This document shows, one piece after another, positions 3,774-34,735 of a stretch of DNA of 34,735 nucleotides. This stretch comes from an uncultured Bacteroidales bacterium (lineage in GTDB: Bacteria; Bacteroidota; Bacteroidia; Bacteroidales; P3), in contig CAMVAA010000008.1 in assembly GCA_947165345.1 (NCBI GenBank), positions 1 through 34,735 of the forward strand. The letters run 5' to 3'. The notes below the pieces were generated by a model. It ran no database searches. It had not been told where the DNA came from and saw only the letters and a list, made by a program, of their open reading frames with translations. Each line of letters starts with the position of its first letter. Within the stretch, counting starts at the first letter, position 1. A program made the position numbers and the translations under genes.

Positions 3774-3802
3774 ACCCTCTCTACCCCCTCTCTACCCCTC
3801 CT
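3774..3802. repeat. 11-base tandem satellite, copy 1
   Basis: Degenerate units of the form accccctctct, about two and a half copies, in the gap between the acetyltransferase and the flavoprotein gene. The rest of this gap (3664-3849) holds AT-rich sequence and the palindrome cgcccgggcg, with no recognisable gene. The same unit family occurs at 17391-17442 and inside the AddA-like gene near 15307-15333. Confidence 0.65.
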
Positions 3803-14075: not shown

Positions 14076-17000
14076 TTAGTTATGGTTAAAAATCGGCACC
14101 TCCACCACCCTCACGTCGGGTTCCAAATACACGATGTACCCACTCACCGCAGGGTATCCCATCTCCACCATGGCGGAGCAGTATCCAGCCACCTGGGTTC
14201 CGTGTTCTGCCATCGGTACACCGGTTTTGAAGTCCACCACCCATGTGCCCTCAGGGGCGAAAACTACACGGTCGGGACGCTCGCGACGGCCGCCCACCAC
14301 CATTTCGCACTCTCGCTTGGACGTATAGCGCGGGTCGAAGAAGCGACGTGCGTCGCTATGGGTCACCACACGACGTGCCAACGAAGCAAGCCGTTCGCGG
14401 TCGGCGGCGTCGGGCACCTGGGCAACAAAATCGGATATAGCCTGTTCCACCCCGTCAGCATCGGCCACAGCAGCCATAAGGTCATGGGCATAAATACCGA
14501 AACGGACCTTGTCCTCTTGGAGCTGCGTGACGGCGTTCTCCGACGGCGAGGCCACATGCACCTTAGACGTCCAGTCTGCAAACGAGAGCCTCTCGAGGCG
14601 CACCGGCTCCTTCCCGTCACGATTCCTGGCTGCGCTGATCCGCGTATCCTCGTCGCCACCATCATAGTCCACGGCGTCAGAAAAAGCCCTGAGAAGGGCA
14701 GGATAGCGCAGGTCCCGTTCCCTCGGTTTCTTTATGTCGTGGGCGTCGGGACAGAAGACATAGAGCTGCTCGCGCGGGCGCGTCAGCGCCACATACAATA
14801 TGTTGAGGTCGTCGACCTCACCGAGCATCTGCTCCTCCCGGCGCTGTGGCTCGAACACCGTAAGCTCGTCGTTTCCAAGGCTCACAAAGGCCGTTGGCAG
14901 CTGACAGCCATCGCCCTCGGCCGGCACATCGACCCACATCTCTACCGGGTAGTCGTGACCGTAGAAAAGGGGGCATATCACCACCGGTGCCTCGAGCCCC
15001 TTCGCTTTGTGAATGGTGAGCAGCCTCACGGCATCCACCTCGTCCGACGCTGCCGCCGATAGGCGCGGCTGGCTGTCGAACCACTCAAGGAATTCGCCCA
15101 CGTTCTGCCTATGACGAGCCGCAAAGGCTGCCACCCGGTTCAACAGTGATGCCACATACGGGGTGTCCACCCCGTCGAGTCCCAACTCGCGTACCACGGT
15201 CTCGCAGCAGTCGTATAAGTCCATCGACCCTAAGTAGTCGAGGTTCAAACGTATACCCCCTATGGTCGGCAACAGCCCACCATCCACGAAAGCATCCCGC
15301 GCAGTCTGCCCCTCCTCTACCCCTACTCTACCCATGGCCTGCATCCGATGTACCAAATCGGCCTGTGCCACCCTGTCGGCTCGGTTGTGCAACAGCCGCA
15401 ATACCGCCACCACCGCCATAACAGCATGGCTTTCGCGCAGGTAGAACGACTCTGTCGAGGTCAACGGCACACCTCCCCGTGCGGAGAGGTAGGCACTGAC
15501 AGCGCCCAGTTCGACATTGCTGCGCGCCAGAACAACGATGTCGGCGTATCGATAGCCTCGCTCCCCGACAAGGGTCTCTATCGTGTCCGCTATGCGACCA
15601 TAGATGGCCTCCTTGATGTCGGTGTCACCTACGTCGGCCTTGCTCACAAAGTCCAGCTTCACACATCCGCGCATCTCCTTGCTCACCCGCTGACGCAGTT
15701 CCTCGTCTCCCTCCGCACGCAGCCGTCCATCCGCGTCGCGACCCACATAGAGCTCCTGCACCAGCGCGTTGTCGGCATACATGTGGCGCGCCAGCCAAGC
15801 GAAGAGCATATTGTTGAATTCCACTATCGCCGATGCGGTGCGGTGGTTGGTGTCGAGCCGCACCAAGCTGTAGTTGCCCCGTATGCCCAGGGTGTGTCCG
15901 TGGTGTTTCATACCCTCAACCCTCGGCAGCCGTGCAAACTGGCGCACGTCGCCCTGCCGGAAGCGGTATATGGCCTGCTTGCCATCGCCCACCACCAGTG
16001 AACGGCAGCGTTGGCTCACCCCGTTCTCCAGCAGCGGCACCAGGTTATGCCACTGCATCACCGACGTGTCCTGAAACTCGTCTATCAGGAAGTGGCGATA
16101 GCGGTTTCCGAGGCGCTCGTAGACGAAGGGAGCCGGGTTGTCCTCGTCCTGAACCACACGGTTTATCAGGCGGTTGAAGTCGCTCAGGTGCACCACCTCG
16201 TTGTCGCGGGCATAGCGGCGCATCTCCCTGTCCAGCAGTCCCAGCAGGGCCATGGAGTATAGGTTGCGCAGCATAGCCCTCAGGCTGTTGTATCGCGTCA
16301 GCCCCTCGCCGAGCAGTCGTTCCACTTTGGCGTAGCGCTCGCGGAGCGCAGGCAGGGCGGCCTCGGCGGCTTCGCGCAGGGCCTTCGGCGCCTTGGCGGA
16401 GGTGAGCTTGCCGTCGTCCATGGCGGCCACGGTGCGTGCCGTCGGCGGTGCAATAGCGCCGTCGGCCATGCGGCTGAAGTAGCCGTAGTAGCCGCTCATC
16501 CCGTAGGGTGCCGTGTCGGCGTCGAGCCCGACCGCCTCGAGGGCGGCCACCATCTCGGCCCCCGCGCGGCGCAGGGCGGCCTCGTAGCGACGCAGCTCGG
16601 CCGTGTAGCCCTGCTGGATGTCACGGAAGTCGCTCAGCGTAAGCTTAGAAAGCTGCGCTATGTGGTCTTCCACGTCCTCCTTGAAGAGCTGCGTAGCCAG
16701 GGCCGACATAAGCCGTTCCACGTTGTAGCCCCGGTCCTCCTCCATCTGGCTGTCCGCGAAGGCCTGCAGCACCTCCGTCAGCTCCTCCTCGCCGTCGGTG
16801 CCGGCCAGCGACATAAGCTGCGAGACGGCCTCGTCGACCATCTCCTGCTGGTCAATCATCACGTCGAAGTTCATCGGCTGCCCCAGGTCGTGGGCAAAGG
16901 TGCGCACCACACGGTGCATGAAACTGTCTATCGTACTCACCGACAAGTCGCTGTAGTGGTGCAATACCTCCGAGTGGAGCCGGGCCGCCATGCGGCTTAG

Positions 17001-17285
17001 CACCCCGCCGTCCGCGATGCCCAGGTCGCGCATGATGTCGGCGCCCATGCCGCCGGCCGTCGGGTCCACGGGGGCCGAGGCCATGGTCTCGAGCTCGTGC
17101 ATGATTCTCCCTTTCATCTCCGCGGCAGCCTTGTTGGTGAAGGTAATCGCCAGTATGGAGCGGAAGCGGCTGTCGACGCCGGCCTCCCCGCCCGCAAATG
17201 CCATCTCAAGATACTCCTTCACAAGGGTATATGTCTTCCCAGACCCAGCCGAGGCCTTGCACACTATAAACGGATTGTCTGTCAT
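14076..17285 (-). CDS. AddA/RecB-like UvrD-helicase with C-terminal nuclease
   Basis: A 1069-residue superfamily 1A helicase-nuclease for double-strand break processing. From the N-terminus: Walker A ASAGSGKT at 11-18, LAITFTNKAAAEMKGRI, DEFQDTSVMQWHNLVPLL (motif II), DGKQAIYRFRQGD (III), LLTIHKAKGLEAPVVICP (V), LYVALTRPREQLYVF (VI), and a PD-(D/E)XK nuclease whose VVDFKTG core is near residue 1030. The architecture is that of AddA; the AddB partner is not in this window. The start is the Met before TDNPFIVCKASAG, just after a -7 box. Around residues 657-667 the sequence GRVGVEEGQT is coded by units of the 11-mer satellite found in gene gaps. Transcription is separate from tonB, with about 90 bases between them. 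Confidence 0.88.
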   Translation of the reverse strand: MTDNPFIVCKASAGSGKTYTLVKEYLEMAFAGGEAGVDSRFRSILAITFTNKAAAEMKGRIMHELETMASAPVDPTAGGMGADIMRDLGIADGGVLSRMAARLHSEVLHHYSDLSVSTIDSFMHRVVRTFAHDLGQPMNFDVMIDQQEMVDEAVSQLMSLAGTDGEEELTEVLQAFADSQMEEDRGYNVERLMSALATQLFKEDVEDHIAQLSKLTLSDFRDIQQGYTAELRRYEAALRRAGAEMVAALEAVGLDADTAPYGMSGYYGYFSRMADGAIAPPTARTVAAMDDGKLTSAKAPKALREAAEAALPALRERYAKVERLLGEGLTRYNSLRAMLRNLYSMALLGLLDREMRRYARDNEVVHLSDFNRLINRVVQDEDNPAPFVYERLGNRYRHFLIDEFQDTSVMQWHNLVPLLENGVSQRCRSLVVGDGKQAIYRFRQGDVRQFARLPRVEGMKHHGHTLGIRGNYSLVRLDTNHRTASAIVEFNNMLFAWLARHMYADNALVQELYVGRDADGRLRAEGDEELRQRVSKEMRGCVKLDFVSKADVGDTDIKEAIYGRIADTIETLVGERGYRYADIVVLARSNVELGAVSAYLSARGGVPLTSTESFYLRESHAVMAVVAVLRLLHNRADRVAQADLVHRMQAMGRVGVEEGQTARDAFVDGGLLPTIGGIRLNLDYLGSMDLYDCCETVVRELGLDGVDTPYVASLLNRVAAFAARHRQNVGEFLEWFDSQPRLSAAASDEVDAVRLLTIHKAKGLEAPVVICPLFYGHDYPVEMWVDVPAEGDGCQLPTAFVSLGNDELTVFEPQRREEQMLGEVDDLNILYVALTRPREQLYVFCPDAHDIKKPRERDLRYPALLRAFSDAVDYDGGDEDTRISAARNRDGKEPVRLERLSFADWTSKVHVASPSENAVTQLQEDKVRFGIYAHDLMAAVADADGVEQAISDFVAQVPDAADRERLASLARRVVTHSDARRFFDPRYTSKRECEMVVGGRRERPDRVVFAPEGTWVVDFKTGVPMAEHGTQVAGYCSAMVEMGYPAVSGYIVYLEPDVRVVEVPIFNHN
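15307..15333. repeat. 11-base satellite inside the AddA-like gene
   Basis: About two and a half units of the 11-mer family. The 19 bases ctctacccctactctaccc here are identical to bases in the gene gap at about 17415-17435. The insertion keeps the reading frame and gives the peptide GRVGVEEGQ. Confidence 0.6.
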
Positions 17286-17308
17286 CTTCCTCTGTCGTTT
17301 ATCGTTTG

Positions 17309-17316
17309 CAAAATTA
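17309..17316 (-). promoter_or_regulatory. -7 box of the AddA-like gene
   Basis: On the minus strand TAATTTTG is an exact TAnnTTTG match about 25 bases before the chosen ATG. No good TTG is seen 19 bases upstream. Confidence 0.5.
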
Positions 17317-17390
17317 CACAAAATTCCCGACATGGACACCTCAAAATCAAAGATATATGTAAAAGCGTATCCCTCAGCACCTTCCCCGCA

Positions 17391-17442
17391 CCCTCTCTAC
17401 CCCCTCTCTACCCCCTCTCTACCCCTACTCTACCCCCCTCTC
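17391..17442. repeat. 11-base tandem satellite, copy 2
   Basis: Almost five units of accccctctct and variants (acccctactct, acccccctctc). With the 8-mer array that follows, it fills most of the nearly 300 bases between the ABC exporter gene and the AddA-like gene. Nothing gene-like is seen in that gap. Confidence 0.75.
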
Positions 17443-17503
17443 CACCGTCACCCTCCATCCGAATATCACCCCTTCGACCCATAAACACATAACCCCTCCG
17501 ACC

Positions 17504-17578
17504 CAAAGTCTCGAAGCCCCAAAGTCCCAAAGTCTCGTAGACTCGTCGTCTCGAAGTCTTGTTGTCTCGTTGTCTCGA
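17504..17578. repeat. 8-base tandem array in the gene gap
   Basis: About ten units of the type cgaagtct (caaagtct, cgaagccc, caaagtcc, cgtagact, cgtcgtct, tgttgtct and so on), ending a few bases before the stop of the ABC exporter gene. It is the same family as the in-frame array at 1774-1860. Confidence 0.8.
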
Positions 17579-17584
17579 AACCCC

Positions 17585-23843: not shown

Positions 23844-23950
23844 CCTTAAACCTTAAACCCTAAACCCTAAACCCTCAACCTTAAACCTTAAACCTTAAAC
23901 CCTAAACCCTAAACCTTAAACCCTAAACCTTAAACCTTAAACCTTAAACC
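23844..23950. repeat. Telomere-like 7-base tandem array
   Basis: About fifteen units of ccttaaa or ccctaaa, preceded by a C-rich run (23821-23843). It follows the stop of the SAM hydrolase gene directly and is followed by a terminator hairpin. The ccctaaa unit equals the plant-type telomere repeat, but both flanks are bacterial genes. Confidence 0.9.
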
Positions 23951-34610: not shown

Positions 34611-34735
34611 AAGTGGAAAGTGGAAAGTGGAAAGCGGAAAGTGGAAAGTGGAAAGTGGGAAGTGGAAAGTGGAAAGTGGAAAGTGGGAAGTGGGAAGTGG
34701 GAAGTGGGAAGTGGGAAGTGGGAAGTGGGAAGTGG
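34611..34735. repeat. 7-base tandem array aagtgga/aagtggg, runs off the edge
   Basis: Almost eighteen units; the left part is mainly aagtgga and the right part mainly aagtggg, so the two variants are segregated. It lies upstream of the T9SS cargo gene. The bases 34495-34610 between them hold a small AT-rich hairpin (gtctgtatatatagac) and no gene. Confidence 0.92.

Follow-up and report, generated by a model that had tools for sequence, protein, structure and literature searches.

An 11-bp satellite dispersed through one Bacteroidales genome occurs in frame in protein-coding genes

A degenerate 11-bp repeat inside an addA-like helicase-nuclease gene belongs to a satellite family that is scattered over the genome of this one species and lies mostly between genes. 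Members of the family are read in frame in unrelated protein genes, where in-frame stop codons are avoided, and their peptides are missing from the homologues that we compared. We favor, at a probability of roughly 0.6, the reading that the addA stretch is one coding copy of this dispersed satellite and that the satellite was spread by block copying via ectopic templated repair. The window is the whole stretch of DNA analyzed here (34,735 nucleotides), and its genome, G000, is a draft MAG of 124 contigs that is 74% complete and in which several contigs terminate within arrays.

The satellite unit is G/C-rich, with GGGGGTAGAGA on the G strand and CTCTACCCCCT on the C strand, and the window holds three arrays of it (Table 1), of which the longest occupies the gap that separates addA from an ABC-transporter gene; these two genes are both on the minus strand. 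The preliminary description of this DNA had reported 19 bases common to the addA-like gene and the gap about 2 kb away, and we recovered both exact copies of this 19-mer, CTCTACCCCTACTCTACCC, the second at 17417-17435 in the gap upstream of the gene; the chance expectation for such a pair was 0 (100 dinucleotide shuffles). Across G000 the exact 19-mer occurred 12 times. With up to 2 mismatches allowed, the consensus 19-mer CTCTACCCCCTCTCTACCC gave 268 matches in G000 and a maximum of 6 in any of 98 relatives, and the backward control pattern for it gave 5 matches. Tandem runs of the unit are found at many unlinked genomic sites, in arrays of 2 to ~10 units, three-unit (30-nt) arrays being commonest. 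The earlier view of the addA stretch as a piece of satellite, and not independent low complexity, is borne out. A looser pattern, TCTCTACCNNNTCTCTACC, was matched 149 times in G000, 24 times in G002 and 2 to 6 times in G007, G015, G070 and G074, with 0 matches in the other 84 of the 90 genomes searched. This distribution suggests that the family goes back to an 11-mer present at low copy in a few congeners, which in this species was amplified and changed its sequence.

Table 1. Satellite arrays of the window and genes that carry the satellite in frame
Feature	Location	Strand	Basis
addA-like helicase-nuclease gene	window 14076..17285	-	Pfam UvrD-helicase N and C domains; open through array
Degenerate 11-mer satellite in addA-like gene	window 15305..15333	-	TRF period 11, 2.6 copies
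Exact 19-mer common to 11 further genome sites	window 15315..15333	+	genome search
Intergenic satellite array, ~5 units	window 17391..17446	+	TRF period 11
Third satellite array, intergenic, 2.2 units	window 3775..3798	+	TRF period 11
ftsL with satellite	L089:18056-18502		Pfam FtsL_2
dnaE with satellite	L160:330-4379		Pfam
tilS with satellite	L150:2364-3692		Pfam
Sulfatase-domain membrane protein, LTA-synthase-like, with satellite	L169:71-1927		Pfam
C25 peptidase with satellite	L107:2-994		Pfam

The best solved-structure match of the addA-like product is AddA (3u44), and a longer ORF, 14076..17339 on the same strand, is possible via a GTG start. Through the array it is the G-rich strand that codes, reading GGT AGA GTA GGG GTA GAG GAG GGG CAG, or GRVGVEEGQ, in agreement with the earlier statement that the frame is preserved. 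The satellite stretch lies shortly past the part of the protein aligned to UvrD1 (to residue 436) and, judging from the SF1A helicase layout, would fall in the 2B domain. The distance between the anchor motifs SxESFxL and LYDCCE is 80 residues here, 80 to 84 in nearly all measurable loop-bearing relatives and 75 in one far relative. In the four closest relatives (G025, G019, G008 and G023; L044-L047) it is 57, the loop being lost; the loop that hosts the satellite here is the one from which ~24 residues are gone in those four. Because the distance of 80 compares with 80 to 84, we conclude that the satellite substitutes loop residues, and the nine residues said to have been added to AddA are not a net insertion. 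As for the peptide itself, whose presence in homologues would have counted against the preliminary description, none of those in the comparison carries GRVGVEEGQ; identity to the AddA of the nearest relative is only 65%.

Six coding copies in unrelated protein genes were found (addA, ftsL, dnaE, tilS, the sulfatase gene and the C25 peptidase gene), and in all six the satellite is in frame. Besides the DNA-repair helicase, the products concerned include the main DNA polymerase, encoded by dnaE, and a division protein, encoded by ftsL. The homologue comparison covered addA, ftsL, dnaE, tilS and the sulfatase gene, and in these five the repeat peptides are absent from the genus homologues. Each of the five sites is a loop or a tail whose length or sequence differs from one relative to another. 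Length is about unchanged at the satellite site of tilS and ftsL; the sulfatase protein is ~10-11 residues longer at the array than all relatives (~+33 nt, close to three units), and the dnaE array belongs to an insert of ~43 to 65 residues (~+130 nt or more) relative to its homologues. Within this dnaE insert (L160, codons ~420-470) a second degenerate repeat, ESENEGVEESENMGVES, precedes the satellite, and other species have unrelated inserts at the same place.

Since the period of 11 is coprime to 3, a long array runs through all three phases. All frames of a C-sense array are free of stops, and its translation cycles through STPSLPPLYPL; a G-sense array presents one TAG per 33 bases in any frame. 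In the G-sense coding arrays, all 5 in-frame TAG positions are altered (CAG in addA, CAG and CAG in ftsL, CCG and CCA in dnaE), a count that excludes a sixth listed dnaE position outside the array, whereas 9 of the 10 out-of-frame TAGs are kept. Given the changed-base rate at the TAG place in intergenic arrays (23/243), p is ~8e-6 for 5 of 5. The C-sense coding copies consist mostly of consensus units, with long pure arrays in genes, as expected. The loss of in-frame TAGs and retention of out-of-frame ones argue that the genes are under coding constraint through the array.

Array placement was assessed in a sample of 411 kb taken in full and in further stretches mostly picked around known arrays. 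In the 411-kb sample, where coding sequence makes up 89% and non-coding 10.6%, 28 of 31 arrays were intergenic (binomial p ~1e-24). By gap type, 17 were in tandem, 6 in divergent and 2 in convergent gaps (n=25), against space shares of 56, 30 and 14%. An enlarged set, which includes stretches selected around known arrays, held 28 tandem, 18 divergent, 8 convergent and 15 contig-edge arrays and 7 called genic ones; one of these seven, in the ThiF-like L193, was set aside because it probably precedes the real start of that gene. We also discarded a role of the arrays as promoters or terminators, placement simply tracking intergenic space.

Per 100 kb, congeners carry 8-10 period-7 and period-11 arrays, and the order's other families carry ~1. 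Species differ in their 11-mer, and AACAATCGAAG, with 697 matches in G029 and 38, 15 and 5 in three congeners, had 0 matches in this genome. Inverted pairs of 11-mer arrays were seen in G029, G012, G025 and G019, and direct arrays in this genome, in whose sampled stretches no two period-11 arrays formed an inverted pair. The pairs of the relatives, in which three to four units are followed, after a short spacer, by three to four inverted ones, are numerous and dispersed (e.g., L121:7207-7299 and 17297-17390; L119:2013-2097 and 14158-14240; L108:2378-2466; L109:10574-10666) and look like a hairpin element made of 11-mers.

How the arrays reached their sites can be approached from their unit orders. 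The variant orders CCT-CCT-CTA and CCT-CCT-CTT-CCT were seen again at unlinked arrays, so that for the family as a whole the idea of copying stands; part of this recurrence could come from a few common variants that arose convergently. TT/TA variant units stood last in the array 13 times against 7.5 expected (61 of 5000 shuffles). The preliminary description had read the unit order as a sign of copying between the gap and the gene, and this holds for the family but is not supported for that pair. The two sites do have the same 19 bases 2.1 kb apart; however, eleven other 19-mers fit equally, the neighboring units differ, and the addA piece CCCCTCCTCTACCCC has its sole match in the sample in the C25 peptidase array. 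Identity to the gene copy ends at 19 bases with every copy, the gap included, so no donor can be named and the gap site has no better claim than other arrays; we therefore consider direct gap-to-gene exchange very unlikely. Growth in place by polymerase slippage from native unit-like sequence, the usual route by which tandem repeats change length, would suit a unit number ranging from 2 to ~10, but it needs one 11-mer to have arisen independently at scores of places, all of them in a single species and none in the relatives. The homologous sites of tilS, the sulfatase gene, ftsL and addA showed no greater resemblance to the unit than did randomly chosen windows of the same gene (mean percentiles 0.63, 0.48, 0.43 and 0.33), which makes growth from a native seed improbable, and slippage would not be expected to yield the length-neutral replacement seen in tilS, ftsL and addA. 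Length-neutral replacement in three genes together with additions in two fits instead a patch written over or into a site.

Another possibility is that selection keeps the arrays because they function at the DNA or RNA level, be it as G-quadruplexes or as protein-binding sites with helical phasing, with the coding copies as side products. A predicted G-quadruplex motif lies on the G strand in 47 of 73 arrays, quadruplexes form in vitro from the G-rich heptamer arrays of Xanthomonas and Nostoc (PMC4692102), and period 11 is reused in the genus with differing units. Against this, array positions track the intergenic share, strand bias is weak (18 G-sense, 10 C-sense), and the dominant 11-mers of other species are not G-rich, so that quadruplexes are not the general reason; we regard a functional role, in either form, as unlikely, if the most serious of the competitors. 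An artefact of draft assembly, with repeats joining unrelated pieces, might be suspected in a MAG of 124 contigs with several ends inside arrays, but the array-bearing addA, dnaE, ftsL and tilS are open and their alignment to relatives holds on both sides of the array. Stops are avoided solely in the frame that matters, and the coding constraint through the array also speaks against an artefact, which we find scarcely credible. A further conceivable source is a dedicated templated activity of the genus, for example a telomerase-like, RNA-templated reverse transcriptase or terminal-extension enzyme, that would write 11-nt repeats at breaks or nicks from a species-specific template and so give each species its own 11-mer family; we hold this to be a long shot.

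Block copying by ectopic templated repair, the reading that we prefer, could have proceeded as follows. A low-copy TCTCTACCNNN ancestor, found in a few congeners, would have been amplified recently in this one species, and blocks of 2-10 units would have been copied to new sites. Templated repair or replication restart may copy a short array patch into an unrelated site in a homology-poor manner, preferably by ectopic template switching or a gene-conversion-like process. The patch would overwrite an equal length of DNA in tilS, ftsL and the addA loop, and would add DNA in the sulfatase gene (the ~33 nt above) and in dnaE (the ~130 nt or more). Most copies persist in intergenic DNA, and coding survivors are confined to proteins' variable loops or tails, where they keep the frame and carry no TAG in it. 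The arrays themselves are probably near-neutral or selfish.

The general view is that satellites are purged from bacterial genomes. The species studied here has scores of private 11-mer arrays, and its relatives have other 11-mers in up to ~700 matching places. The entry of the satellite into core genes shows a selective footprint in the contrast between its in-frame and out-of-frame TAGs. Two questions thereby become testable in bacteria, namely how short arrays jump to unlinked sites and how foreign peptides come to be tolerated in core proteins.

Three known systems bear comparison. The GGGNATC heptamers of Xanthomonas and Nostoc are dispersed and intergenic, with a preference for four units (PMC4692102); like the arrays described here, they are tandem repeats of a short G-rich unit whose copies number from 2 to many, and they are spread genome-wide, strongly intergenic and quadruplex-capable in principle. 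They differ in having a unit of 7 where ours has 11 and three-unit arrays are commonest, which places our arrays outside the GGGNATC class. Moreover, our arrays do not avoid divergent gene pairs, have in-frame copies with stop avoidance in core genes, and were amplified in one species of a genus. The TAACTGA direct repeats of Beggiatoaceae, Cyanobacteria and some Bacteroidetes (PMC4679880) also form dispersed short tandem arrays, mainly intergenic with some within ORFs, and in them, too, one orientation bears stops, there in all frames, and is restricted in ORFs. Those repeats sit mainly in the DNA immediately before start codons and, within ORFs, near protein ends, whereas the 11-mers also occupy internal loops (dnaE, addA and tilS), including in the stop-bearing orientation with the stops mutated. 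Rickettsia palindromic elements (reviewed in PMC10969869) are likewise dispersed repeats in frame in many unrelated protein genes, apparently tolerated, but they are palindromes of ~150 bp; the units here are 11-bp non-palindromic direct repeats in tandem, without a fixed element length. In the open-access literature of one library, we found no known system that combines all the features seen here.

Several other repeats accompany the satellite. The window contains the heptamer arrays (CCTTAAA)15 at 23844-23950 and (AAGTGGA)18 at 34611-34735, the latter reaching the contig end, and degenerate 8-mer arrays of the AAGTCTCG / CTTGAAGT type at 1795-1858 and 17502-17579, one of which closely adjoins the satellite at 17391. 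In many arrays the middle units are CTCTGGGTCCT, with GGGT in place of ACCC, its reverse complement (e.g., L162:2971-3055, L158:303-420 and L096:12656-12729), and such arrays could form internal 4-bp stems with 7-base loops. In the downstream flank of an 11-mer array, within a few tens of bases and on the same side and strand, there is often an AT-rich heptamer array of the CAATTTT type. The two are neighbors at L166, L167, L175, L176, L177 and L182, and the intergenic regions look like composite repeats.
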